Shown here piece by piece: positions 3,476 through 16,531 of a stretch of 64,000 nt of DNA. The stretch is from positions 2,739,545-2,803,544 of the forward strand of contig NZ_KQ031382.1 of the NCBI RefSeq assembly GCF_000384335.2. The letters are read 5' to 3'. Numbering within the stretch: position 1 is the first letter of the stretch; every line of letters begins with the position of its first letter. The translations under genes and the position numbers were made by a program. The notes beneath the pieces are model-generated. The model saw only the letters and a program-made list of their open reading frames with translations, was not told the origin of the DNA and searched no databases. This DNA is from Hyphomicrobium sp. 99. Its GTDB lineage: Bacteria > Pseudomonadota > Alphaproteobacteria > Rhizobiales > Hyphomicrobiaceae.

Positions 3476-3983
3476 CCAGAGAGATCGAGCGATAGAGCAG
3501 GACCAAGCTCGCCTAACACTGCCAAACGGAGAGTTCTAAATAAGAATTTCCGAAATCGTTATGAAGTTTGGCGCGGGTACGCAGAACCAGCGGACGACAA
3601 CAATCCAAGCCGAGCCCTCGCCTCGTGCGGCAAAAGGTGCGTACGGCAAGACAATCCAGCAGAGGTCCATCTAAGCTTAGCAATTCTAATCAGTTCTCAC
3701 ATTCGTTTCTCGTGAGTAAATCGACTTCCGTTTTAAGCGCAGTAGTGTGGAAGTTGACAGATGACCTAAATCAGCAACCGCGAGGATGCTGCTCAAATTC
3801 CGGGTGCTCCCATGCACCACGTATCGCGGAACGATCTTGCTGCTGAGACCGCAGCCGAGATCACAAGACGCAATTGAACAACCCGACCGAAGTTAAACGG
3901 CGAATGACCTCGCCGAACGGACGACGCTTGCGACAAACCAAGGATGTCGCGCCGCCGATTGACTCGAAGAAACGAGAACGACG
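3476..3983. other. Intergenic region before the organosulfur operon
   Basis: About 500 bases with no supportable gene. The 5' part would have carried the lost N-terminal portion of the SsuD-like remnant, but I see no further recognisable fragments. The 3' part must hold the promoter of the plus-strand operon beginning at 3984. It is comparatively AT-rich around 3530-3760, and no operator could be singled out. Confidence 0.4.
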
Positions 3984-5447
3984 ATGGAACTCGATCAACA
4001 GGGACTGGCGCTCACCGGCGCGACCAACAACGGCGCGGAACTTTTTCGCAGCGCTCTCGACGAACTGGTCTATTTCAAATCCTCAGTGCTTTCGACGCTC
4101 GATAAGGCGATCGCGGAAGACCCAGGCTTCGCTCTTCCCTATTTCGCACGAGCCTATCTCGACCTTTTCATGACGGAGCCAAAGTTCGCGAAGCACGCGA
4201 AACTGACGATCGACGAACTCAAGTCAAAGGTCGATATCAATAAGCTTCCGAGCAGAGAACGGCATCACGCGGCCGCGATCGAAGCATGGATAGAGGGCGA
4301 TCTTCGCAAGTCTGCGCGCATCCTTGATCAGCTCGGCCTTGATGAGCCACGCGATATCTTGGCCCTCCGCATCGGGCACGAACTCGACTTCTTCTCCGGC
4401 AACAAGAGAAGTTTGCGCGATCGCGTCGCACGCCAACTGAGCGCGTGGACGCCATCGGACGCTCACTATGGCATCGTGCAAGGCTGCTATGCCTTCGGCT
4501 TAGAGGAAAACGGCCAGTACGAACGCGCCCAAGAACACGGCTTGATTGCGTTGAGCGTACGTCCCGACGACGTTTGGGCGCTCCACGCCGTAACTCACAG
4601 CTTCGAAATGCGCGGCGCTATCGCTGACGGACTTCGCTTCATGAGCGACCGCAGCAACGATTGGGCGGAAGGCAATCTCTTCAGCGCACACAATTGGTGG
4701 CACAAGGCTCTGTTCAACACCGACATCGGCGACTATGCGACCGCATTCAAAATCTACGACGAGGCCATCTTCAACCAGGACTCGCCGAAGATTGCGCTCG
4801 TCCTGCTCGACGCCTCCTCATTGCTTTGGCGCCTCCATCTTCTCGGCGTACCTGTTGCCGATCGCTTCGCAAAACTCGCAGCTGCATGGGAGGCCCTGGA
4901 GCCAGATCCCTTCTACGTCTTCAACGATGTCCACGCCGTCATGGCCTACATCGGCAGTGGCCGCATCGCCGATGCGCGCGCTGTAGTAAGCCGCCTCGAG
5001 CGGTACGTGACCAGTGGCCGCCAAGACTCGAACAATTACCACAACACTATTCGTGTCGGGCTCCCGCTTGCGAAAGCGCTCGTCGCCTTCGGCGAAGAGC
5101 GATACGGAACGGCGTTGGAACTTCTCTACGGTGTCCGCGAAAACGCGATCGAGTTCGGCGGTTCCGAAGCTCAGCGCGACGCAATCGACCGGACGCTGCT
5201 TGAGGCAGCGATCAGAAGTGGTCGCGCGAATTTGGCCAACGCGCTCGCTTCGGAGCGGATCAACCTCAATCCGCACAATCCTTACAACTGGTCGAAGATG
5301 GCCGAAGCCCTTCGGTTGTCGAACGCCGTTGAGCGTGCGCGGGAGAGCGACACACGATCGCAAGCTCTCAAAGCCGAAGTCTTCCAGGCCGTGACCCCAG
5401 GGCATGCGCAGAGCGGCGCCCCAATCGGTTCACCTCTCCAACACTGA
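3984..5447 (+). CDS. TPR protein of the TTC38 type
   Basis: 487 residues, all-helical in appearance, with repeated 34-residue-like units: DEAIFNQDSP, ALSVRPDDVWALHAVTHSFEMRG, and SERINLNPHNPYNWSKMAEAL near the C-terminus. The central 'HAVTHSFEMRG...HNWWHKALF' block is the hallmark of tetratricopeptide repeat protein 38, a family found in bacteria and eukaryotes with no established activity. There is no signal peptide, so it is probably cytoplasmic. It is the first gene of a seven-gene plus-strand run, 57 bases ahead of the FMN monooxygenase. A scaffold or chaperone role for the sulfur enzymes is possible but only inferred from position. Confidence 0.8.
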   Translation: MELDQQGLALTGATNNGAELFRSALDELVYFKSSVLSTLDKAIAEDPGFALPYFARAYLDLFMTEPKFAKHAKLTIDELKSKVDINKLPSRERHHAAAIEAWIEGDLRKSARILDQLGLDEPRDILALRIGHELDFFSGNKRSLRDRVARQLSAWTPSDAHYGIVQGCYAFGLEENGQYERAQEHGLIALSVRPDDVWALHAVTHSFEMRGAIADGLRFMSDRSNDWAEGNLFSAHNWWHKALFNTDIGDYATAFKIYDEAIFNQDSPKIALVLLDASSLLWRLHLLGVPVADRFAKLAAAWEALEPDPFYVFNDVHAVMAYIGSGRIADARAVVSRLERYVTSGRQDSNNYHNTIRVGLPLAKALVAFGEERYGTALELLYGVRENAIEFGGSEAQRDAIDRTLLEAAIRSGRANLANALASERINLNPHNPYNWSKMAEALRLSNAVERARESDTRSQALKAEVFQAVTPGHAQSGAPIGSPLQH

Positions 5448-5504
5448 CAAAATAGAAACCCCTCCTCTCCCCCACACACCAAACGTCAAAAGGACAGACT
5501 CCCC

Positions 5505-6821
5505 GTGTCATCTAAGAAATTCCACTTGGGTTGGTTCACGAACTTCACTGCAGACGAGTGGAACGAACCCTTCTCGAATGGCGGCGATTCCTGGGACGGA
5601 AAATTCCACATCGAGATGGCTCAATCTCTCGATCGCGCCGGCTTCGACTTCATCATGCTCGAAGACAAGCTCGCCATCCCCGAAGCCTACGGTGGCAGCT
5701 TCGAAGTCTACCTGAAGCACGCACTCGGCATGGCGCCGAAGCATGACCCAGTTCCCCTTGCAACGTTGCTTGCTGCCTCGACGAAAAATCTCGGCGTCGT
5801 CGCAACCATGTCCACGCTCGGCTATCCGCCATTTCTCCTGGCGCGCCTGTGCTCGACCATCGACCATTTGGCCGGCGGACGCTTCGGCTGGAACATCGTG
5901 ACGAGCGCTGAGAACTCTGCTGCGCAAAACTTCGGCTTGGATCGCTTGCCGCCCCGCGAGGAGCGCTACGAGAGAGCCCACGAATACATGGACCTCGTCT
6001 TCAAGCTGTTCGATTCCTGGGAAGACGGCGCCATCATTCGCGACCGCGCATCGGGCACCTACGCCGACTTCAAGAAGGTCCACACGATCAACTTCGAAGG
6101 AAAATATTTCAAATCGCGCGGCCCCTTGAACACAGCGCGGTCGCCCCAAGGACGACCGACGCTTCTTCAAGCCGGTGGATCACCAACGGGCCGCGACTTC
6201 GCGGCACGGTACGCCGACGCCATCATTGCAGTGAGCGGCGGCGTCGAAGGAATGAAGGAATACCGCGACGACATTCGCGCCCGCGCCAGGAAGCACGGAC
6301 GCAATCCCGATGATATCAAGGTGATGTTCCTCGTGACACCCGTGCTCGGCGAGACCGAACGCGAAGCGCGCGACAGGCACGATCGCATCACCGAAGCGCC
6401 GGGCTTCATCGAGCAGAACCTCGCATTGATCTCCGCGATCACCGATATCGACTTCAAAAAGTTCGATCTCGACAAGCCGTTGCCGGAGCGCCTCGTCACC
6501 AACGGCGAGCAGGGTTCGCTTGATATGTTCCAGCAATGGGGCACCAGCAAATCCCTGAGGCAGCTCGTCGTCGAGGCCTCCGGCGGCATCTGCGCCTCGA
6601 TCGAGCTTGTCGGAACGCCTGATCAAGTTGCCGATCAAATGGGCGAAGCGATGGAGCAGGTCGGCGGCGACGGCTTCCTAATCACGACGCCGAGCCTCTC
6701 GACCAACCGCCGGCATATCGCGGAAGTGACCGACGGTCTCGTACCGGCTCTGCAGCGCAGAGGTCTGGTCCGCGACGGCTATACCCACAAGACGCTGCGC
6801 GAAAACCTACGCGCCTTCTGA
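5505..6821 (+). CDS. NtaA/SnaA/DszA/DmoA-type FMN-dependent monooxygenase
   Basis: 438 residues from GTG with AAAGGA upstream. It is a luciferase-like TIM barrel of the NtaA/SnaA/DszA group: HLGWF start, FDFIMLED (residues about 49-56), ATMSTLGYPPFLLARLCSTIDHLAGGR..WNIVTS in the middle, then RPTLLQAGGSPTGRDFAARYAD and the C-terminal GTPDQVADQM. Enzymes of this group use FMNH2 supplied by a separate reductase to oxygenate small S- or N-containing substrates (nitrilotriacetate, dibenzothiophene sulfone, dimethylsulfide). No flavin reductase is encoded nearby. Because the operon also encodes an importer and a methanethiol oxidase, the likely reaction cleaves an S-methyl compound to release methanethiol. 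DmoA itself differs noticeably at the N-terminus, so I do not give that symbol. Confidence 0.85.
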   Translation: MSSKKFHLGWFTNFTADEWNEPFSNGGDSWDGKFHIEMAQSLDRAGFDFIMLEDKLAIPEAYGGSFEVYLKHALGMAPKHDPVPLATLLAASTKNLGVVATMSTLGYPPFLLARLCSTIDHLAGGRFGWNIVTSAENSAAQNFGLDRLPPREERYERAHEYMDLVFKLFDSWEDGAIIRDRASGTYADFKKVHTINFEGKYFKSRGPLNTARSPQGRPTLLQAGGSPTGRDFAARYADAIIAVSGGVEGMKEYRDDIRARARKHGRNPDDIKVMFLVTPVLGETEREARDRHDRITEAPGFIEQNLALISAITDIDFKKFDLDKPLPERLVTNGEQGSLDMFQQWGTSKSLRQLVVEASGGICASIELVGTPDQVADQMGEAMEQVGGDGFLITTPSLSTNRRHIAEVTDGLVPALQRRGLVRDGYTHKTLRENLRAF

Positions 6822-6866
6822 AGCATCAACTCACGACCTTCCACTAGCCCCTCACGAGGAACTCTT

Positions 6867-7931
6867 ATGAAACGCAAGATTTTTACAATTTTGCTGGCGT
6901 TTGCAGCACTCCTGCAAGTCGGCGCACCTTCCGTCCATGCAGCGGAAAAGCCCACATTCAAACTCGGCTGGATTGTCTTCACGCCTTGGATGCCCTGGGG
7001 ATACGCGCAGCAGAGCGGCATCCTGAAAAAATGGGCCGATAAGTATAACGTCAACATCGAGCTCGTGCAGCTCAACGACTATGTCGAGTCGCTCAATCAG
7101 TATTCGGCTGGCGGCCTTGATGGCGTGCTCGGCAGCATCGCCGACGTTTATTCCATTCCCGTTGCCAACGGCGTCGACACGACGATCTTCCCGATCGACT
7201 ATTCGAACGGCGCCGATGCCGTCATTCTGAAAGGCAAGGACAAGCTTGCCGACATCAAAGGACAGACGGTCAATCTGGTCGAGTTCTCGGTCTCCCACTA
7301 CCTGCTCGATCGCGCTCTCGAATCCGCAAATCTCAAGCCCGACGACGTCAAGCGCGTGAACACGTCGGACGCGGACTTCGTGGCGGCCTATAAGAGCCCC
7401 GACGTCTCCGCGATCGTCGCGTGGAACCCGCAGATCGAGCAGATCAAGACATCGGGCGATGCCCACATCGTCTTCGACTCTTCAAAGATCAACGGAGAGA
7501 TTTTCGAGTCCGTTCTCCTGCGTACGAGCAAGCTCAAGGAAAATCCCGATGTCGCCAAAGCCCTGCTCGGTGCGTGGTACGAAACTGTCGGCATCATTAA
7601 TGGAACGTCGCCAGAACGTGCTGGCGTGATCAAATCGCTTGCCACTGCTTCAGCAACCGATGCGGCAGGCTATGAGCAGCAGCTCAAGTCCGTCGTCATA
7701 TTCTCGGACGCCAAATCTGCGCTCGCATTCGCCGACAGACCGGAAACCAAAAATACGCTTATCCGCGTCCGCGATTTCGCCCATCGCTACAATCTTCTCG
7801 GCAAGGACGTGAAGGACGCCAACGCAATCGGCATCGAACTTCCGAACGGCGAAGTCGTCGGAAATTCGAAGAATGTTCTCTTGCGGTTCGACAGATCTGT
7901 TCTGGCGCTCGCAGCAGCGGGCAAACTCTAA
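6867..7931 (+). CDS. ABC importer periplasmic binding protein (NMT1/SsuA-like)
   Basis: 354 residues, GAGGAAC ribosome site. A signal peptide ends near VHAAEK. The mature start, FKLGWIVFTPWMPWGYAQQSGILKKWADKY, is the pattern of the substrate-binding protein often found with urea carboxylase genes in the nitrate/sulfonate/taurine superfamily. Further family marks are VQLNDYVESLNQYSAGGLDGVLGS and the NGADAVILKGKDKLADIKGQ hinge strand. It should capture the substrate in the periplasm for the permease and ATPase that follow. Its genomic partners here (FMN monooxygenase, methanethiol oxidase) argue for an organosulfur ligand rather than urea or guanidine; that is inference. It is 45 bases downstream of the monooxygenase. 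Confidence 0.85.
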   Translation: MKRKIFTILLAFAALLQVGAPSVHAAEKPTFKLGWIVFTPWMPWGYAQQSGILKKWADKYNVNIELVQLNDYVESLNQYSAGGLDGVLGSIADVYSIPVANGVDTTIFPIDYSNGADAVILKGKDKLADIKGQTVNLVEFSVSHYLLDRALESANLKPDDVKRVNTSDADFVAAYKSPDVSAIVAWNPQIEQIKTSGDAHIVFDSSKINGEIFESVLLRTSKLKENPDVAKALLGAWYETVGIINGTSPERAGVIKSLATASATDAAGYEQQLKSVVIFSDAKSALAFADRPETKNTLIRVRDFAHRYNLLGKDVKDANAIGIELPNGEVVGNSKNVLLRFDRSVLALAAAGKL

Positions 7932-7940
7932 GAAAATCTG

Positions 7941-8762
7941 ATGGCCCGCTTATTGAACACGACGCCGTCTCGAGGGCTGACCTTAGCCCTCGGGGCGGCA
8001 CCATTCCTCGCAGTCGCAATCGTTTACGGATACGCGTCGGCGGCGCGTCTGCTCGTCAACGCACGCGACAATCTCTTGCCGTCTCTCGAGACCATGCTCG
8101 GCGGACTGCAACGCGTAGGTTTCGAAACCGATCCGATCTCAGGCCACTTCGTCTTTCTTGCCGATACGCTGGCCAGCCTTGAACGGCTCGGAGTAGGTCT
8201 TGGCATCGCAGCCATTATCGGTCTCTACATCGGCATCATCGTCGGTCTGATCCCGCTCGCGCGCGCAACGCTGGCACCCTTCATTGCCGTCCTTTCGATC
8301 ATTCCGCCGATCACGCTTCTACCCATATTGTTCATCGCATTCGGCCTGGGAGACACCTCGAAAATCATCCTGATCGTGATCGGCATCGCGCCGTTCATCG
8401 CGCGTGACATCGCCGCTCGCACGCAGGAAATCCCGAAGGAAATGCTTATCAAAGCGCAGACGCTGTACGGATCGACCTGGTTGATCACACTGCATATCGT
8501 TCTGCCGCAGATCTTTCCGCGTCTTCTCGAAAGCATTCGTCTCAGCCTCGGCCCGGCATGGCTTTTCGTGTTGTCCGGTGAAGCCATCGCAGCACAAAGC
8601 GGTCTCGGCTACCGGATCTTTCTCGTCCGGCGATACATGGCGATGGATGTGATCATCCCTTATGTCATATGGATCGGCATATTGGCATTCACGTTCGATC
8701 TTGCGCTACGGTGGAGCGCAAGGCGGCTCTCCCCCTGGTCACAACCCGGAAACACAAGATGA
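7941..8762 (+). CDS. ABC importer permease (SsuC/TauC-like)
   Basis: 273 residues, six hydrophobic segments, BPD_transp_1 fold. The cytoplasmic EAA loop (EIPKEMLIKAQTLYGSTWLITLHIVLPQIFPRLLE, about residues 165-200) contacts the ATPase. An unusually long loop between the first and second helices carries an extra segment (ETDPISGHFVF). It starts nine bases after the binding-protein stop and ends in an ATGA overlap with the ATPase gene, so the three importer genes are translated together. It forms the inner-membrane channel for the unknown substrate of this operon. Confidence 0.9.
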   Translation: MARLLNTTPSRGLTLALGAAPFLAVAIVYGYASAARLLVNARDNLLPSLETMLGGLQRVGFETDPISGHFVFLADTLASLERLGVGLGIAAIIGLYIGIIVGLIPLARATLAPFIAVLSIIPPITLLPILFIAFGLGDTSKIILIVIGIAPFIARDIAARTQEIPKEMLIKAQTLYGSTWLITLHIVLPQIFPRLLESIRLSLGPAWLFVLSGEAIAAQSGLGYRIFLVRRYMAMDVIIPYVIWIGILAFTFDLALRWSARRLSPWSQPGNTR

Positions 8763-9532
8763 GCCAGATCTCCGTCCGTAATCTGGATGTCGTCATCGAC
8801 GGCCATCCCGTTCTCCGTCAGGTCAATCTCGACGTCGCGAGCGGCGAATTCTGCGTCGTCACCGGGCCGTCGGGAAGCGGAAAGACGACATTTATCCGCC
8901 TCCTCCTCAGTCAGATACGACCGACGGCTGGCGAGATCTCGATCGATGGCACTCCGATCGCTCCCTTCCCCGCTCCGGATCGCGGAGTTGTATTTCAGGA
9001 TTACTCCGTTTTTCCGCACAAGACCGCGTTGCAAAACGTTCTTGTCGGTCCGCAGTTCAAACGCTCGCGATTTCTCGGCCGCATTTTCGGTCAGGAGCGC
9101 AAAAAGCTTATCGAACAAGCGATGCAAGCGCTTTCTGATGTCGGCCTCGCACAGGCCGCATCGAAGTATCCGAGCCAGCTCTCCGGCGGCATGCGCCAAC
9201 GTTTGGCGATTGCTCAAGCCTTGATCTGCCGCCCGAAAGTGTTGCTGCTCGATGAGCCTTTCGGAGCGCTCGATCCTGAAAACCGCGCACAGCTTCATCG
9301 CGTTGTTCTCAAACTTTGGCGCGAGAGCCGCACGACGATTGTGATGGTGACCCACGATCTCGCCGAGGCTCAGACGTTGGCGACGCGGCTCGTATCCTTC
9401 GGTTTTGCCGCCGGCGGCGGTGGAACGATCGTTTCTGATGGATCTCCCCAAGCCGGCTCGGCCGTGGTCACATCCTTCACACAGAAAAGCGGCAACCCGG
9501 CGAATCGGCAGAAAAAACGCAAATACCGCTGA
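8759..9532 (+). CDS. ABC importer ATPase (SsuB/TauB-like)
   Basis: 257 residues from the ATG of the ATGA overlap at 8759. A longer in-frame start at 8669 lies inside the permease gene and is unlikely. Walker A is GPSGSGKTT (about residue 37), the Q-loop is VVFQDYSVFPHK, the signature is LSGGMRQRLA, Walker B is VLLLDEPFGALD, and the H-loop is VMVTHDLAEA. It powers uptake by the permease at 7941-8762. The last 35 residues are a basic, glycine-rich tail (NRQKKRKYR) not typical of SsuB. Confidence 0.92.
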   Translation: MSQISVRNLDVVIDGHPVLRQVNLDVASGEFCVVTGPSGSGKTTFIRLLLSQIRPTAGEISIDGTPIAPFPAPDRGVVFQDYSVFPHKTALQNVLVGPQFKRSRFLGRIFGQERKKLIEQAMQALSDVGLAQAASKYPSQLSGGMRQRLAIAQALICRPKVLLLDEPFGALDPENRAQLHRVVLKLWRESRTTIVMVTHDLAEAQTLATRLVSFGFAAGGGGTIVSDGSPQAGSAVVTSFTQKSGNPANRQKKRKYR

Positions 9533-9592
9533 CCCATCCCAAACATCCGCGTTAACATTCGCGCGGAGACGACAACAGAACGGAGATAAGCA

Positions 9593-10993
9593 ATGGTCCA
9601 GAGACCCGATCCAACCTTTCACGCATCTCCGAAACTCGCCAGCGAAGCCCCGCCTGAGAAGTTCGCCTACACGCTCCTGCTGAGCGGAGACTTCTCGAAG
9701 CCGGACGCACTAGCGATCGTCGATGTCGATCCAGCTTCGGCGCAATACGGAAAAATCGTGCACACCGTCACGATGCCGAACAAGGGCGACGAATTTCATC
9801 ATTTCGGCTGGAACGCGTGCTCGTCGGCCCTTTCACCGCTCTCCGGTCACGCCTTCATCGAGAGACGATACCTCATCATCCCGGGGCTCCGCTCGTCGCG
9901 GCTCTATATCATCGATACGAAACCGCATCCGACACAGGCAAAAATTCACAAGATCATCGAGCCGGAAGAGATCTTCCATAAGACGGGTTATTCGCGTCCT
10001 CATACGGTCCACTGCGGACCAGATGGCATCTACGTCAGCACGCTGGGCGGCGCAGGTCCCGACGGAACCGACGGCCCACCAGGCATCTTCATTCTTGATT
10101 GCGAAACCTTCGACGTGCTCGGCCGATGGGAGATCGATCGCGGCCCGCAGCTTCTGCATTACGATTTCTGGTGGAACCTGCCGCGCGATTACATGGTCAG
10201 CAGCGAGTGGGGCTTGCCGCCGCAATTTGAAAACGGAATCGTGCCGGAAGACCTGCTTGCCAATAAATACGGGCATCACATTCACTTCTGGAACTTGCGC
10301 GCGCGCCGCAACGTGCAAACCATCGATCTCGGCGCCAACCATCAAATGGCGCTTGAAGTTCGCCCAGCGCATGATCCCGCCCGGGAATATGGCTTCCTCG
10401 GCGTCGTCGTCGACACAACGAACCTCGAGGGATCGATCTGGACGTGGTGGCGCGAAGGCTCGGAATTCCGCATTGAGAAGACGGCGACGATTCCGGCCGA
10501 ACCTGCAGATCCCGAATTGTTGCCTCCCCTCCTCAAAGGCTTCGGTGCTGTCCCTCCGCTGGTGACGGATATCGATCTGTCCCTCGACGATAAATTTCTT
10601 TACGTCGCGTGTTGGGGGACGGGCGAGCTTCGCCAATATGACGTGACCGAGCCGCGTAAGCCGAAATTGGTTGGCAGCGTTCACGCGGGCGGCATCGCTC
10701 GGCGGACGCCTCGGCCCGACGGAACGCCCTGGGCAGGCGGACCGCAAATGCTCGAGATCAGTCGAGATGGAAAACGCGTGTACGTTACGAACTCGCTCTA
10801 TTCGACGTGGGATGATCAATTCTATCCCGAAGGTGTTCCCGGCGCCTTGGCAATCGTCAACGTCAATCCAGCGGGCGGCATCGCATTCGACAAAACGTTT
10901 CATGTCGAAGTCCCCGAAGGATATCGCACGCACCAAGTTCGGCTCGAAGGCGGCGACTGCTCGACAGACTCGTTCTGCTACTCATCAGCTTGA
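9593..10993 (+). CDS. mtoX: Methanethiol oxidase / selenium-binding protein SBP56 family
   Basis: 466 residues, ribosome site CGGAGATAAGCA. The full SBP56 signature set is present: EFHHFGWNACSS (residues about 64-75), SRPHTVHCGPDGIYVSTLGG, LHYDFWWNLPRDYMVSSEWG, ANHQMALEVRP, LSLDDKFLYVACWGTGELRQYDVTEP and a C-terminal THQVRLEGGDCSTD. In Hyphomicrobium and in the human homologue SELENBP1 this family oxidises methanethiol with O2 to formaldehyde, sulfide and peroxide, using copper held by conserved histidines. Unlike the periplasmic Hyphomicrobium enzyme, this one has no signal peptide, so it would act in the cytoplasm, beside the monooxygenase thought to make its substrate. The mauG and SCO-type genes that accompany some mtoX genes are not here. 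Confidence 0.85.
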   Translation: MVQRPDPTFHASPKLASEAPPEKFAYTLLLSGDFSKPDALAIVDVDPASAQYGKIVHTVTMPNKGDEFHHFGWNACSSALSPLSGHAFIERRYLIIPGLRSSRLYIIDTKPHPTQAKIHKIIEPEEIFHKTGYSRPHTVHCGPDGIYVSTLGGAGPDGTDGPPGIFILDCETFDVLGRWEIDRGPQLLHYDFWWNLPRDYMVSSEWGLPPQFENGIVPEDLLANKYGHHIHFWNLRARRNVQTIDLGANHQMALEVRPAHDPAREYGFLGVVVDTTNLEGSIWTWWREGSEFRIEKTATIPAEPADPELLPPLLKGFGAVPPLVTDIDLSLDDKFLYVACWGTGELRQYDVTEPRKPKLVGSVHAGGIARRTPRPDGTPWAGGPQMLEISRDGKRVYVTNSLYSTWDDQFYPEGVPGALAIVNVNPAGGIAFDKTFHVEVPEGYRTHQVRLEGGDCSTDSFCYSSA

Positions 10994-10995
10994 AT

Positions 10996-11655
10996 ATGAG
11001 CGACGGTTGGAACATTGGACTTTGGCTCGCGATAATCGTGAGCGGCGTCTATCACGGCGTCAATCCTGGCATGGGTTGGCCGCTGGCAGTCGCTGCCGGA
11101 TTGATGGAGCGCCGGCAATCGGCGCTCCTCGCCGCGCTCGGGCCCCTGGCCGCCGGCCACTTCCTCGCGATGACTGTCATTCTGTTGCCCTTCGGCATGT
11201 TGACGGCTCTCCAATATTGGAGCCATGAGATCCGCCTCGTGGCGGCCCTGATCGTAATCGGTGTGGGAGTTTTTCTTTTCGCCTATCGCCGGCATCCGCG
11301 CGTTCTCGCGCGCATTCCACCTAGCCAAATCGGTCTTTGGTCGTTCGCAATCGCCATTGCTCACGGTGCCGGTTTGATGCTGGTGCCGATGTATCTCGGG
11401 CTATGCACGACAAAGCCGTCATCGATGCTCGATCATGACGCTGCGATGTCGGTCGTCACGAATAACCTCGGCTTGGCAGTTCTCGTATCCGCCGCGCACG
11501 CGCTCGCCATGATAGGAGCGGGGGGCGTGGCCGCCTGGCTCACCTATCGCTATTTTGGCCTGCAAGTTCTGTCCAAAGCCTGGATCAATCTCGACGCGCT
11601 TTGGGCGGGAAGTCTCATCGCCGTCGGCGTTGTTGCTGTTGCCGGCTCTCTTTGA
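10996..11655 (+). CDS. Seven-helix membrane protein of the organosulfur operon
   Basis: 219 residues from ATG at 10996. An in-frame TTG at 10990 would overlap the oxidase stop. Seven or so hydrophobic helices. The first carries VYHGVNPGMGWPLAVAAGL, a His-Gly-x-Asn-Pro-Gly motif that resembles, without matching, the first motif of NicO/UreH-type metal transporters (HALDADH). Another His-rich spot is AIAHGAGLMLVP, and there is also SAAHALAM. It is tightly coupled to the methanethiol oxidase. Two readings fit: supply of copper or another metal to the oxidase, or export of a product such as sulfide. Neither is proven and I do not recognise a named family. Confidence 0.6.
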   Translation: MSDGWNIGLWLAIIVSGVYHGVNPGMGWPLAVAAGLMERRQSALLAALGPLAAGHFLAMTVILLPFGMLTALQYWSHEIRLVAALIVIGVGVFLFAYRRHPRVLARIPPSQIGLWSFAIAIAHGAGLMLVPMYLGLCTTKPSSMLDHDAAMSVVTNNLGLAVLVSAAHALAMIGAGGVAAWLTYRYFGLQVLSKAWINLDALWAGSLIAVGVVAVAGSL

Positions 11656-11799
11656 TGCGTCGCCCTGGCGCCGGATGTCGCCGCAGTTTCGGCTGAGGGC
11701 TGTCCAAACCCATTCCTTATGGTTGATGGCCGTTTACCTGCCACACTGAAATCCTGTCATGACTTGCAGGATGTTCGGCTACCTTCCCTCGTTAGGTCT

Positions 11800-11818
11800 A
11801 CTGTCAACGGACGACAGT
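11800..11818. repeat. Short inverted repeat before the glycosyltransferase
   Basis: ACTGTC (11800-11805) and GACAGT (11813-11818) are perfect inverted arms around seven bases, 64 bases before the chosen start of the glycosyltransferase. It could be an operator or chance; no second copy was seen. Confidence 0.3.
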
Positions 11819-11882
11819 TGAGTTAGGTTGAGGCAGGTCTTGCAGACCGATGTCTTTGCCAGCCCCTATGGGAAACCTGACA

Positions 11883-12788
11883 ATGGCAAACGATGAACAA
11901 CCAAGGGTTTTTCTCACGCTCCTCGTCTGCACCCTGGGCCGGGTGGAGCCTCTCGAACGCCTGTTGAGCTCACTAACCGCACAAACTCTCAAAAACTTCG
12001 AAGTCATCATCGTCGATCAAAATCCCGAGGGCTCTTTGGATCCCACGATCCAGAAATTCCCCGAGCTTCGCATAAAGCACTTGCGCTCGCGCCCAGGACT
12101 TTCGCGAGCAAGAAATATCGGTCTATCCGCTAGTTCGGGCCGGTATGTGGGCTTTCCTGACGACGATGTCTGGTACCGGCCGACTGTCGTGGAAGAGGTG
12201 TTCGACACCTTTCGCCGGAATCCAAAACTAAGCGCGATCACGGGGCGATTGATCGACCCTGAAGGACACCCTGTAACCGTCTATCTGCCGGGTGAAGCGC
12301 AGATAACCCGCGAAAACATTTTCGAGGCCGCCAATTCCAACACAATCTTCATCGAGTGCGCGCTCGCGCAGTCGCTGAGATTCGATGAGGGCCTTGGGTT
12401 GGGCGCGGCAAGCGAGTTTCAATCGGGCGAAGAAACCGATTTTCTTCTTCGCGCTCTAGAGCGCGGCGTTGCCGGATGGTATTTTCCGGAACTCACCATC
12501 TTCCACGACGCCGTCGATAACGGAACTCCGTTCGCCGAACGCGCCCGACGTGCAACAGCCTACGCGCGAGGTTTCGGCTATGTCATTCGAAGGCATCGCT
12601 ACCCGCCGTCCTATATTTTAGGAAAAATTGCGCGAACCTCGCTCCGGGGAGCTTTGTGTGTCGCGACAGGAGATCTCGACGGCGCACGACTGAGGCTCGC
12701 ATGGACCAACGGCGTGCTCTATGGATACAGCAAAGGCAAACCGAAGCTACCCGTCGCTGCTGAGCGGATTCACGGCAAGAAAAAGTAG
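11883..12788 (+). CDS. Family 2 glycosyltransferase
   Basis: 301 residues from ATG at 11883, preferred over ATGs at 11850 and 11868 because GGGAA lies nine bases upstream and the GT-A fold starts right after it (FLTLLVCTLGRVEPLERLLSSL). The nucleotide-sugar/metal motif is FPDDDVW, and the EETDFLLRALERG helix carries the expected acidic residue. The C-terminal 70 residues are basic with an amphipathic stretch, suggesting peripheral contact with the inner membrane. It is probably involved in surface polysaccharide or glycolipid synthesis; acceptor unknown. It is monocistronic. Confidence 0.85.
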   Translation: MANDEQPRVFLTLLVCTLGRVEPLERLLSSLTAQTLKNFEVIIVDQNPEGSLDPTIQKFPELRIKHLRSRPGLSRARNIGLSASSGRYVGFPDDDVWYRPTVVEEVFDTFRRNPKLSAITGRLIDPEGHPVTVYLPGEAQITRENIFEAANSNTIFIECALAQSLRFDEGLGLGAASEFQSGEETDFLLRALERGVAGWYFPELTIFHDAVDNGTPFAERARRATAYARGFGYVIRRHRYPPSYILGKIARTSLRGALCVATGDLDGARLRLAWTNGVLYGYSKGKPKLPVAAERIHGKKK

Positions 12789-13083: not shown

Positions 13084-13839
13084 ATGCGGAATATCGAAAT
13101 AGGATATGTGTCGGGTCAGACCGACGAGCGAACCGAAGCTCATGCGACGACTTCCCTGAACCTTCCCTTTGTTCTCACGCACCAAACACGGATCCTGCTC
13201 GCAAACTTCGATGAGCCTCAGCGGATGCTGAGTTGGTCGCTGACGAAGCCCGGCTTTCAAATCGCCCGGCAAGTGGCTTGGATCGAACTCCGCGATGCCG
13301 ATCTGCCTGCCGATCAAGACGCCGAGGATGTCATCGCCAGCCGTATCGCGAAAGTCGGGCTAACCGAGGCGGTGTCTCTGATCACCTCGCGCGACATCAG
13401 TCGGCATCACGTATCGCGGGTCGCCGTCGAAGATACCGTCGCGGCATGCATCAGCACTGTCGGACTCTCAAACGGCGAGCGCGTTGGGCAACGCTTCGCA
13501 CCGCCCGGCACTCCGCTCGGCACCATCAACACGATGGTTCATGCATCGGTACCGCTTTCGGACGCGGCATTGATCGAGGCGATCACGATAGCCGCTGAAG
13601 CGAGAACCGCCGCCATTTTGGATTCTGAAGTACGCCGATCGGGCGTGGCAATCACTGGCACGGGAACGGATTGCATCATCGTTGCGGCGCCGCTCGGCGG
13701 CTCGGTGCGGTTCGCTGGTCTACATACTGCCGCCGGCGAAGCGATCGGTGCAGCCGTCTACAATGCAATACGCGACGGCATAGCCGCATGGCTCCAGGAT
13801 ACGGAGACCATGCAGCTAGCCGTCGGCATTGAAAGCTAG
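13084..13839 (+). CDS. cbiZ: Adenosylcobinamide amidohydrolase CbiZ
   Basis: 251 residues, about the usual length for CbiZ. Family words include ISRHHVSRVAVEDTVAACISTVGLSNGERVG, GTINTMVHASVPLSDAALIEAITIAAEARTAAI and GTGTDCIIVAAPLGG near the C-terminus. CbiZ removes the aminopropanol side chain of adenosylcobinamide (or of pseudocobalamin), giving adenosylcobyric acid, so that scavenged incomplete corrinoids can be rebuilt into cobalamin. It is cytoplasmic. Its stop lies three bases from the stop of the minus-strand membrane gene of the btuB operon, in convergent arrangement, so this is a corrinoid-salvage locus. I did not find a B12 riboswitch in front of cbiZ itself. Confidence 0.88.
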   Translation: MRNIEIGYVSGQTDERTEAHATTSLNLPFVLTHQTRILLANFDEPQRMLSWSLTKPGFQIARQVAWIELRDADLPADQDAEDVIASRIAKVGLTEAVSLITSRDISRHHVSRVAVEDTVAACISTVGLSNGERVGQRFAPPGTPLGTINTMVHASVPLSDAALIEAITIAAEARTAAILDSEVRRSGVAITGTGTDCIIVAAPLGGSVRFAGLHTAAGEAIGAAVYNAIRDGIAAWLQDTETMQLAVGIES

Positions 13840-13842
13840 CGC

Positions 13843-14394
13843 TTATGCCATTGCGGGCGTAGCAGCCTCGGGCTTGATCAAGGAAATCGCGACAGCGGCA
13901 CGATGCAACACAAGCAAACCGGCGAACGAGGCAAGATTGATCAGAAGAACGCGCTCTACGACGGCCATTGAGAAGGCTTCATCCGACGATCCGAGGATGA
14001 AACCGGCTCCGTAAAGCGCCGCCTCGTACGCAGCGAAAGCCGCGAGGAATGCACCGGCCAGCGCAACAAGCGACGATCCTGTCGCGACCGAAACAGCGCG
14101 CGCTCCCAAGAATGCAGCAATGCTTGCGACGCCGATGGCCGCGCCCCAAGCGAAGGAATCTGCCGTCAGCGGATAATCGAGAAGTCCATAACCGACGATC
14201 TGGTTCGAGAGCCAAGCCGCGGCGACCAACGCCAAACCCTCTCCGCTCTTCATTTTTGATCCGGCAAGCGCGCCGATGGCAGCGAGCGGCGCCGCGCAAG
14301 CGAAGGCCAAGCTGCCACCAATGCTGAGTGCGGCGATCAAAGCGATCCAAAGCCCGGTCGCGGCGTTGTCATTGGTGAGCGTCTTCAAGGTCAT
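13843..14394 (-). CDS. Membrane protein of the btuB operon, putative corrinoid-related
   Basis: 183 residues from ATG at 14394 (upstream in-frame starts would run into btuB). It contains five to six hydrophobic helices rich in Ala, Gly and Leu, with IGGSLAFACAAPLAAIGALAG, AAAWLSNQIVGYGLLDYP and AALYGAGFIL. It follows btuB by 82 bases on the same strand and should share the cobalamin riboswitch. Small solitary membrane proteins with this genomic habit (BtuM-like, Cbt-type) have been proposed or shown to move cobalamin or cobalt across the inner membrane. The lone Cys in the first helix is interesting because BtuM uses a Cys to bind cobalt. The assignment to such a family is not certain. No BtuFCD genes are in the window. 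Confidence 0.6.
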   Translation of the reverse strand: MTLKTLTNDNAATGLWIALIAALSIGGSLAFACAAPLAAIGALAGSKMKSGEGLALVAAAWLSNQIVGYGLLDYPLTADSFAWGAAIGVASIAAFLGARAVSVATGSSLVALAGAFLAAFAAYEAALYGAGFILGSSDEAFSMAVVERVLLINLASFAGLLVLHRAAVAISLIKPEAATPAMA

Positions 14395-14476
14395 GCGATG
14401 TCTCCTAGTTTGTCGGATATTAGCACACAGGCAATGCAAGGCGAGAGGGCGTGTAACGGCCCCCTCGCCCGGAATT

Positions 14477-16531
14477 TCAGTTCGTGAACCGAAGACCGCC
14501 GTAGACGCCGATGCCGGTGCCTTCGAAGCCGTTCGGATTTTCGTAGCGCTTGTCGAAGAGGTTATCGATCCGCCCAAAGAGGCTGACGCCTTCCTTGAGC
14601 TTATAGTCGGCAGCCACGTTGACCAGCGTGAACCCAGGCTGCGTAATAGTCGCGTAAGTTGAGCGGTCGATATCGGCCGTCTCGCCGATGTAGACCAGCG
14701 AAGCCGTCAACAAGAGCGGATCGTAGGGTATCCATCCTGCCTGGAGGCTCGCCTTATTCCGGGGACGGCGAAGAAGCTGCGTGTGCGTATCTTCGTTGGT
14801 TGCTTCCGTATAAGTGTAGTCGGCTCGGACGCGAAGGCTATCCGTGATGTCCGCCGATGCAAAGACCTCAACACCGGATGTCTTCGCCTTGCCGACATTC
14901 ACGTAGGTCCAATGGCCGGAATCGAAGCCCGAATTGATCAGGTTTGTGATGTCATTGTAGAAGTATATTGCGCCGAATTGAGCCCGGCCTTTGAAAATGG
15001 ACTGCTCGAAGCCGGCATCCATGCCAAGGCTTTCCTCGGGGGCAAGGTCGGGATTGCCTTGCGACCACGGCGAAACCATGAATCGTTGATAGAGCGTCGG
15101 CGCTTTGAACCCAGTGCCGACGCTGCCCTTCAGTTTTGTGCCCGTCGCTTCGATCAAGTAAGCTGGTGCGACGCGCCACGTCGTATGACCGCCAAAGTTT
15201 TCGTTGTCGTCATAGCGCACGTTGCTGACGAGGAAGAAGTTCCGGAAGATTTCCGATTGCAGCTCCACGAACCCGGCGCGGTTCCATTCCTCGGCGGACA
15301 ATGGTCCATTGCCGTCCCAATTGTCGAGGTGTCCGCGCTGATGCTCGGCGCCGGTCACGATCGTATAACCCGGCGCCACGCGAAGAACGCTACGCCAGTC
15401 GTATTTCACGCGTTCGCCGTCGTTGGAGCTTCTGCCCCATGTGGTATCGTTGTTGTCCGACTGAAGATTGGCGTAGTTGATGCCGAAGTAGTTGGTCAGG
15501 TTGCCGCCGAGCGTCTTCCACACGACTTCGCCGCGAGTATAGAACTGCTCATAATCCGAGCGCGACAGTGACGAATTGGGGTGGCTCGGATAGCCTGAAT
15601 CATCGCCGGTGAAATGTAGCGTCGCATCCGTATAGCGGCTGACGAAATTCACCGTGACGTCCTTTGTCACGTCAACGCCGATCTTTGTCGAATACGTCCA
15701 ATTGTCGTAACGGCTGCTGTGGTGTTCTTCGCCCGGCAACAGAAGATCGAACGGCGTCACAGGCGTATCGTCGGCTCGAAAATGCGAAACGCTGAATGAG
15801 TAGTTGTAGCGATCCGTCCCGCCGCTGATGCTCGTCGCCTGGTTGAACGTACCGAACGAGCCGCCTTCTACCATTCCGGTGGCTTTAGGCGGTCCCTTGC
15901 CCGCTTTCGTGTAGATGGCGATGACGCCGCCCAAAGCGTCCGCGCCGTAAAGGCCGCTCTGCGGGCCGCGCAAGACTTCGACGCGTTCGATGTCCGTCGT
16001 CAGCACCTGACCGAAATCGAAGGAACGGTTGGAATTGCTCGGGTCGCTGACGTCGATGCCGTCGATCAAAACCTTCGTGTGATTTGAATTTGTTCCGCGC
16101 ATGAAGACCGACGTAAGGCCGCCGGGACCACCCGTTTGCACGACGTTGAGACCCGGCACGCTTTTCAGAACATCTGGCAGCGTGCGGCGCTGCTGCGCTT
16201 GGATTTCCTTTGATGTGATGACGGTAACCGAGCTTGCGATCTGCTCGACGGGCGAGACGATGCCCGTCGGCGAAACGGCCACATCCGAATTGTCGATATC
16301 ACGCGCCGTTCCAGTGGCACCTCCGCCTGAAGCCCGAGGCGTCGAACTTTGCTGAGCGGCACTTGGCGCCTTCTTGTTCGGTTTCGGATCTGTGTCCGCA
16401 GTCACGGTGACAGCAGGAAGCTCGGTGTTAGGTGATGTCGGCACCTCAGCGTCCGCTTCGAGCGCAGAAAATGATGATAGCGTGCAGAGAAGCGTCGCAC
16501 GCGTAGTGCGGCGCATGAAGGCGCGTAGCAT
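14477..16531 (-). CDS. btuB: TonB-dependent cobalamin/corrinoid receptor BtuB
   Basis: 684 residues from ATG at 16531 with GGGGG seven bases upstream. A signal peptide ends near ALEADAE, then a TonB box (ELPAVTVTAD), a short Lys/Ser/Ala-rich linker, and the plug domain (SVTVITSKEIQAQQRRTLPDVLKSVPGLNVVQTGG, then VLRGPQSGLYGADALGGVIAIYT). The 22-strand barrel follows and closes with YGGLRFTN. The plug words match BtuB, and a cobalamin riboswitch precedes the gene, so it should import cobalamin or cobinamide across the outer membrane using TonB energy. It is first in an operon with the membrane gene at 13843-14394. Confidence 0.9.
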   Translation of the reverse strand: MLRAFMRRTTRATLLCTLSSFSALEADAEVPTSPNTELPAVTVTADTDPKPNKKAPSAAQQSSTPRASGGGATGTARDIDNSDVAVSPTGIVSPVEQIASSVTVITSKEIQAQQRRTLPDVLKSVPGLNVVQTGGPGGLTSVFMRGTNSNHTKVLIDGIDVSDPSNSNRSFDFGQVLTTDIERVEVLRGPQSGLYGADALGGVIAIYTKAGKGPPKATGMVEGGSFGTFNQATSISGGTDRYNYSFSVSHFRADDTPVTPFDLLLPGEEHHSSRYDNWTYSTKIGVDVTKDVTVNFVSRYTDATLHFTGDDSGYPSHPNSSLSRSDYEQFYTRGEVVWKTLGGNLTNYFGINYANLQSDNNDTTWGRSSNDGERVKYDWRSVLRVAPGYTIVTGAEHQRGHLDNWDGNGPLSAEEWNRAGFVELQSEIFRNFFLVSNVRYDDNENFGGHTTWRVAPAYLIEATGTKLKGSVGTGFKAPTLYQRFMVSPWSQGNPDLAPEESLGMDAGFEQSIFKGRAQFGAIYFYNDITNLINSGFDSGHWTYVNVGKAKTSGVEVFASADITDSLRVRADYTYTEATNEDTHTQLLRRPRNKASLQAGWIPYDPLLLTASLVYIGETADIDRSTYATITQPGFTLVNVAADYKLKEGVSLFGRIDNLFDKRYENPNGFEGTGIGVYGGLRFTN

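Follow-up and report, generated by a model that had tools for sequence, protein, structure and literature searches.

In Hyphomicrobium sp. VS, the SBP56-family methanethiol oxidase MtoX carries copper, is encoded in an operon mtoX-SCO1/senC-mauG and is often encoded together with the copper chaperone SCO1, according to the accessible text of Eyice et al. (PMC5739008). The proven methanethiol oxidases RdMTO and RlMTO of the Rhodobacteraceae (three-cysteine SBP56 proteins, cluster 1) require the cysteines of their GWNACS, HTVHC and GGDCS motifs, and the reaction proposed for them includes formaldehyde; the accessible part of that report mentions no operon with a monooxygenase and an importer for these enzymes (PMC10936201). 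A guanidine carboxylase operon with an ATP-binding cassette (ABC) importer, and the genes mgdH and mgdL for methylguanidine breakdown, are described for Vreelandella in the available portion of PMC12508155. Here, we analyse a locus of Hyphomicrobium sp. 99 that resembles each of these systems in part. Within a 64,000-nucleotide stretch of contig NZ_KQ031382.1 (the window), seven plus-strand genes are packed into one compact unit (positions 3984–11655) and encode, in order, a tetratricopeptide repeat (TPR) protein, a flavin-dependent luciferase-like monooxygenase (LLM), the substrate-binding protein, permease and ATPase of an ABC importer, an SBP56 protein and a polytopic membrane protein. The unit is composite, with two parts: a five-gene core (TPR protein, monooxygenase and importer trio) and an SBP56–membrane protein module.

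Like the mtoX operon, the locus is found in Hyphomicrobium and places a candidate maturation gene directly behind a predicted methanethiol oxidase of the SBP56 family. Unlike the VS enzyme, which carries a signal peptide and is partnered by SCO1 and MauG, the window's SBP56 protein is of the three-cysteine type, has no signal-like N-terminus, and is accompanied by a histidine- and cysteine-bearing membrane protein and joined to a monooxygenase–importer core. The importer belongs to the same family as those of guanidine carboxylase operons, one of which is present in the same genome (locus L249); in contrast to such operons, the seven genes include no urea/guanidine carboxylase, allophanate hydrolase or ureohydrolase, a guanidine riboswitch is absent from window positions 3500–12000, and a flavin monooxygenase and a predicted methanethiol oxidase are found instead.

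The initial annotation had claimed seven tightly packed plus-strand genes, all of which are present, with gaps of −4 to 60 bp (57, 45, 9, −4, 60 and 2 bp from gene 1 to gene 7), the ATPase gene overlapping the permease gene at an ATGA. Of 22 Hyphomicrobium genomes, 6 carry the same seven genes in unchanged order (the window and loci L211–L215, four of which are also named L082, L083, L084 from H. facile, and L094), and the set therefore exceeds chance clustering. An orthologous monooxygenase (92–100% identity) is found in 6 of the 22 genomes, and an SBP56 protein scoring about 580 bits is confined to exactly these six, always inside the operon and nowhere else. Distant SBP56 proteins (135–145 bits, the score range of MtoX) are held by four other genomes of the genus, none of which has the operon, so that the two SBP56 score groups sit in different genomes (4/22 and 6/22). 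Paralogous monooxygenases with 72–76% identity are present in the window's own genome (G000) and in G679, G680, G685 (in two pieces) and G688. When compared to the five other operons, the window's genes have ratios of nonsynonymous to synonymous substitution rates (dN/dS) of 0.02–0.17 wherever dS is computable, including 0.02–0.04 for the monooxygenase against all five and 0.11–0.14 for the TPR gene against four; the fifth TPR comparison is saturated, the TPR and ATPase comparisons with L083 being those beyond calculation. The operon's genes are under purifying selection. Recurrence of monooxygenase, SBP56 protein and importer as a trio in other genomes, which the initial annotation set as a check, is borne out by co-inheritance within the genus, but not beyond it: our searches met all three together in Hyphomicrobium only, and outside it the monooxygenase–importer pair and the SBP56–membrane protein pair occur apart.

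The window's SBP56 protein is predicted to be a three-cysteine-type methanethiol oxidase. It matches PF05694 with 581 bits and carries the motifs HHFGWNACS, HTVHC and GGDCS (cysteines 76, 141 and 456), in agreement with the cluster 1 patterns GWNACS, HT(V/I)HC and GGDC(S/T); the motifs of the proven enzymes are thus in place, as the initial annotation's assignment of a methanethiol oxidase would require. By hydropathy, its N-terminus has no hydrophobic, signal-like stretch. We distinguish three groups of SBP56 proteins: type A, 57–100% identical to the window's protein, type B, about 42% identical to it, and a group in the MtoX score range (about 130–170 bits). The cysteine spacing of the window's protein (65/315) is near that of RlMTO (64/316), as is that of 11 type-A sequences (65/314–315), while 7 type-B sequences (61/305–306) are closest to RdMTO (61/305). 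Most type-B proteins also carry the three motifs; consequently, the motifs are not markers of type A. Identity with classical MtoX was rejected (97.3 bits against a cut-off of 650 for NF052453), and the MtoX hallmarks of a signal peptide and SCO1/mauG neighbours are missing, the genes 3′ of the SBP56 gene being those of the membrane protein and then a glycosyltransferase. A solved relative is 2ece (591 bits), which we take to be a Sulfolobus protein.

The membrane protein, for which the initial annotation knew no described role, is a near-constant partner of type-A SBP56. Among 297 genomes of the order, type A is present in 21 (E ≤ 1e-60) and the membrane protein in 22 (E ≤ 1e-8), and all 21 type-A genomes hold the membrane protein next door (in G157 the pair is cut by a contig end). 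By gene rather than by genome, 21 of 22 type-A copies are paired, a second copy in G036 having no such neighbour. The membrane protein is missing from all 14 genomes whose SBP56 is of type B alone. In another sample, drawn from the class and comprising 131 genomes with the window's own among them, five have the membrane protein, all beside an SBP56 gene; the other seven genomes with SBP56 (two high-scoring and five in the MtoX range) were without it. Among open-licence literature, examined by titles and the openings of abstracts, we found no description of such an operon or of the SBP56–membrane protein pair. At one type-A locus (L046), a gene for methionine gamma-lyase, a methanethiol-releasing enzyme, is the third gene from SBP56 (13882–15090; 726 bits against a cut-off of 666), and another (L044) includes an O-succinylhomoserine sulfhydrylase gene.

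We propose, by analogy, that the membrane protein is a candidate handler of copper or another metal, because MtoX contains copper and its gene often lies with that of the copper chaperone SCO1. In an alignment of 30 diverse members, H20, H55, H123, H168, C137 and M26 are invariant, among others. Its structure model has a predicted local distance difference test (pLDDT) value of 88; no fold stands out when the model is compared with solved structures, no family model fits, and the weak family matches are mutually inconsistent. Of 120 listed homologues, every one with a name given by its source is called hypothetical or uncharacterized, and the others are nameless. An orphan copy without type-A SBP56 (L256:9712–10359, genome G213) lies among cobalamin genes and at 7 kb from cbtA, a gene for a cobalt transporter, a setting that points weakly to a metal-related role of the family. 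Whatever the operon's substrate, the pairing offers a testable gene for metal acquisition by cytosolic SBP56.

Judged by its sequence, the importer is recruited from the urea/guanidine-carboxylase importer family. The binding protein belongs to TIGR03427, named a putative urea ABC transporter substrate-binding protein (410.9 bits against a cut-off of 333.9), and a sulfonate importer of SsuA type was rejected (73.3 bits against 163.5 for TIGR01728). Consequently, of the organosulfur import pathway first proposed for this locus, the intracellular release of methanethiol still fits, but the importer does not belong to an organosulfur type. We characterized the neighbourhoods (9 kb, or to the end of the fetched stretch) of 64 other TIGR03427 loci, comprising 63 of the 64 places in the order, with the window's own omitted, and one more from the genus. 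Genes of urea, guanidine or creatinine type are present at 46 of them (18 urea/guanidine carboxylase, 25 arginase-family ureohydrolase and 3 creatininase), the monooxygenase family at 11, one of which also has a gene of the former class, and neither at 8, some of these shortened by contig ends. The reference carboxylase (L249) is a TIGR02712 protein (1908 bits against 1304), and the reference ureohydrolase is agmatinase-like, scoring below cut-offs (169 against 174 bits). Four TIGR03427 binding proteins are encoded in the window's own genome, at L249 beside the carboxylase, at L248, at L132 beside a paralogous monooxygenase, and in the operon. At L248 (10352–13335, on G000:C3), the binding protein gene lies between genes for a 2-oxoglutarate/Fe(II) oxygenase and an unnamed 278-aa protein, a pair reminiscent of mgdH/mgdL as presented in the available portion of PMC12508155.

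In a tree of these binding proteins, those of the operon, with that of H. zavarzinii included, form one clade (100/100) among the carboxylase- and ureohydrolase-linked types. Its stem measured 1.65 changes per column in the first tree, a value we doubted because it looked too long for proteins with 49% identity. By another method the stem came to 0.81 and was the longest of the inner branches (median 0.06), which upholds a long stem without a claim on its exact size. The other monooxygenase-linked binding proteins sit elsewhere in the tree, and at least three changes are needed. On average, the operon's binding proteins are 49% identical to the carboxylase-linked ones, compared to 64% between carboxylase- and ureohydrolase-linked types. 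Of the 142 columns that these two types conserve, they keep 110, and residues with 91–100% conservation in the two types have been replaced (for example Y38F, G40P, N91I, M92A and N116A), with L95Y also among the changed columns. These replacements may reflect a change of ligand.

The core also occurs without the SBP56 module. In H. zavarzinii (L085), the TPR, monooxygenase and three importer genes stand together while the SBP56 and membrane protein genes are missing; upstream lies a remnant of SsuD, an alkanesulfonate monooxygenase (81 bits across 74 residues), and the downstream side encodes a sulfurtransferase of rhodanese type, a phosphoesterase and another ABC importer, whose binding protein is of SsuA type (230 bits against 163.5; a further binding protein scores 132, below the cut-off). 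The core thus meets sulfur-type neighbours in two different arrangements. The single SBP56 protein of the H. zavarzinii genome is encoded elsewhere and scores in the MtoX range (152 bits). Across 103 genomes of the family, the core's TPR gene is present at 60% identity or more in 7, all of which also hold an SBP56 protein. Distant TPR homologues (about 40% identity) at 20 alphaproteobacterial loci have no broadly shared neighbour by eye, and the TPR protein, whose Pfam matches are TPR repeats only, at threshold level, may at most be a scaffold. Its TTC38-type label traces to the source name of a single homologue (P0213).

The monooxygenase shares the LLM subfamily TIGR03860 with DmoA, NtaA, DszA/BdsA and CmoJ (420.2 bits against 279.7), SfnG standing apart, and it is not specifically close to any of them. 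SfnG identity was rejected (75 bits against 382.95 for TIGR04021). The nearest solved relatives are BdsA (264 bits), YtnJ (248), MoxC (248) and DmoA (6ak1; 242), the NtaA-type protein 3sdo scoring 211, so that DmoA, from which the monooxygenase had already been set apart by its N-terminus, is no closer than BdsA or YtnJ and is outscored by both. Relatives with about 60–74% identity are encoded with a TIGR03427 importer, some together with a flavin reductase, amidase, CN-hydrolase or isochorismatase-family gene. Others, with 58–64% identity, lie at five distinct alphaproteobacterial loci (L095, L097, which is also L145, L144, L146 and L149) alongside flavin reductase genes and ABC genes of the polar amino-acid type, with an MsnO8-type monooxygenase in four of the five and ribB in three; these clusters presumably resemble Bacillus S-alkylcysteine salvage. 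Relatives thus occur in both kinds of cluster, and the family does not settle between C–N and C–S cleavage. One paralogous cluster in the window's own genome (L132, G000:C3:2813500–2833400) holds binding protein, permease and ATPase genes, a monooxygenase 74% identical to the window's, and FMN (flavin mononucleotide) reductase and carbon-nitrogen hydrolase genes, families as tested in L086; L086 and L087 are similar. At L147, an SsuA-type binding protein (8004–8699; 169 bits against 163.5) adjoins a cluster of monooxygenase and TIGR03427 importer genes and is the second case of a sulfonate-type importer next to this family.

The explanation we tentatively prefer, at somewhat short of an even chance, is that a remodelled guanidine-type importer feeds the flavin monooxygenase, and that the cytosolic SBP56 protein with its His/Cys membrane partner oxidises the methanethiol released. 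The importer would bring in a small ureido- or guanidino-like compound bearing an S-methyl or other oxidisable sulfur group, and the monooxygenase, drawing its reduced flavin from another source in the cell, would oxygenate and split it. SBP56 would then convert the methanethiol to formaldehyde and sulfane sulfur, while the membrane protein would supply or guard the metal of SBP56. Hyphomicrobium is a methylotroph, and the formaldehyde would be used.

Several observations weigh against this explanation. We infer the substrate class and the oxygenation step rather than read them from the sequence, and no flavin reductase is encoded inside the operon. The six operon genomes are related species of one genus, so that co-inheritance does not amount to six independent events, and 4 of the 16 Hyphomicrobium genomes without the operon still hold some SBP56. 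None of the 64 other TIGR03427 loci has SBP56 beside the importer, and outside the genus, neither the monooxygenase nor the TPR gene is near any of 20 type-A loci, of which three are under 9 kb in length. The exact place of the binding-protein clade is unsure because of its long stem, and its divergence is not peculiar to the operon, since the other monooxygenase-linked binding proteins keep even fewer of the conserved columns (88 of 142, compared to 110). Elsewhere, clusters that combine members of the monooxygenase and importer families occur without SBP56, some with an amidase, nitrilase-like or isochorismatase-family gene or with flavin reductases, and these neighbours favour nitrogen chemistry.

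That chemistry is the basis of the main rival, which is doubtful but a real contender: the monooxygenase would oxidatively cleave or N-dealkylate an imported, sulfur-free guanidino, ureido or amide compound, and the SBP56 pair would merely be co-transcribed, handling methanethiol or oxidative stress from other sources. Such a nitrogen pathway would suit the importer family and its urea/guanidine-type neighbours, the other monooxygenase–importer clusters, which have no SBP56 and in some cases an amidase, CN-hydrolase or isochorismatase-family gene, and the autonomy of the SBP56–membrane protein pair in other genera. It sits less well with the confinement of type-A SBP56 to the operon within the genus, with the sulfur-type neighbours of the H. 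zavarzinii core, or with a binding protein that has lost residues fixed in its carboxylase- and ureohydrolase-linked relatives. A pathway resembling known dimethylsulfide degradation, in which the substrate of a DmoA-type monooxygenase would be a volatile methyl sulfide and some other task would fall to the importer, is very improbable: although the monooxygenase belongs to TIGR03860 and DmoA is among its solved relatives, BdsA and YtnJ outscore DmoA, the SBP56 protein is not MtoX, and the importer is kept together with the monooxygenase in H. zavarzinii, pairs of the same two protein families also existing in other bacterial families.

We give hardly more credence to Cmo-type salvage of S-alkylcysteines, whereby a CmoJ-like monooxygenase would dealkylate an imported S-methylcysteine derivative. 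YtnJ, which we take to be CmoJ, is among the nearest solved relatives, and the five loci with 58–64% relatives combine flavin reductases with polar amino-acid ABC genes; on the other hand, the seven genes include no CmoO/MsnO8-type monooxygenase, acetyltransferase or deacetylase, and the importer does not belong to the polar amino-acid type. Moreover, in the CmoJ reaction, as given in the accessible text of PMC10863075, the sulfur stays on cysteine and the alkyl group becomes an aldehyde; such a reaction would therefore yield no methanethiol.

If the preferred explanation, import of a sulfur-bearing compound and oxidation of its methanethiol, is true, guanidine-type uptake would be joined to organosulfur catabolism, to our knowledge separate fields until now, and there would be an intracellular source of methanethiol beyond dimethylsulfide, dimethylsulfoniopropionate and methionine. 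In a stronger version, which we regard as unlikely, the operon would be the first pathway for a urea or guanidine analogue that contains sulfur and is imported (such as one of the S-methyl isothiourea or S-methyl thiocarbamate type): a guanidine importer would have been re-specified, a new NtaA-subfamily monooxygenase would split the compound, and a cytosolic methanethiol oxidase would complete the pathway together with a dedicated metal-handling membrane protein, which would define a second, SCO1-independent route of SBP56 maturation.

Upstream of the operon lies a 12-bp palindrome, also written as TCTAAGCTTAGA, which is a candidate operator. Its first 11 bases, TCTAAGCTTAG, are invariant across the six aligned operon upstream regions, and the exact 11-mer occurs in 15 of 323 loci, all 15 being copies of this operon's upstream region. 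When the window was scanned with the 12-mer and one mismatch allowed, there was 1 match, with 0.05 expected and a match in 4 of 100 shuffles. The palindrome was not seen in the H. zavarzinii stretch examined, it was not among the output of an inverted-repeat search, which came back empty, and no regulator gene for it was identified. Regulation by a guanidine RNA was considered and dropped: across window positions 3500–12000 there was no guanidine or other riboswitch and one chance-level match to another RNA, and seven related loci (a set distinct from L085 and L249) gave no Rfam match above the gathering score. Promoter and terminator scans showed no excess over shuffles.

The coordinates of all features are collected in the table below. 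The start of the ATPase gene was corrected to the ATG at 8759. For the membrane protein, the ATG at 10996 is more likely than the TTG at 10990, because the database entry of the same protein (P0001) and its close homologues (P0002–P0009) are 219 aa long.

Features of the seven-gene operon and its upstream region (window coordinates)
Feature	Position	Strand	Remarks
Palindromic element TCTAAGCTTAG(A), candidate operator	3670..3681		upstream of operon; putative role
TPR protein (TTC38-like)	3984..5447	+	487 aa; N-terminus without signal-like stretch
FMN-dependent LLM monooxygenase, NtaA/DmoA family	5505..6821	+	438 aa; GTG start; TIGR03860
ABC importer substrate-binding protein, urea/guanidine-carboxylase type	6867..7931	+	TIGR03427; signal-like hydrophobic N-terminus
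ABC importer permease	7941..8762	+	PF00528, 56 bits
ABC importer ATPase	8759..9532	+	PF00005, 116 bits
Cytosolic SBP56, predicted three-cysteine methanethiol oxidase	9593..10993	+	466 aa; PF05694, 581 bits
Polytopic membrane protein, SBP56 partner	10996..11655	+	219 aa; invariant His and Cys

Slightly downstream of the operon, window positions 13084–16531 encode the adenosylcobinamide amidohydrolase CbiZ, and a minus-strand gene there specifies a TonB-dependent receptor, to which vitamin B12 receptor models are nearest, yet below their cut-offs (278 bits against 599.7). This region probably serves cobamide salvage.

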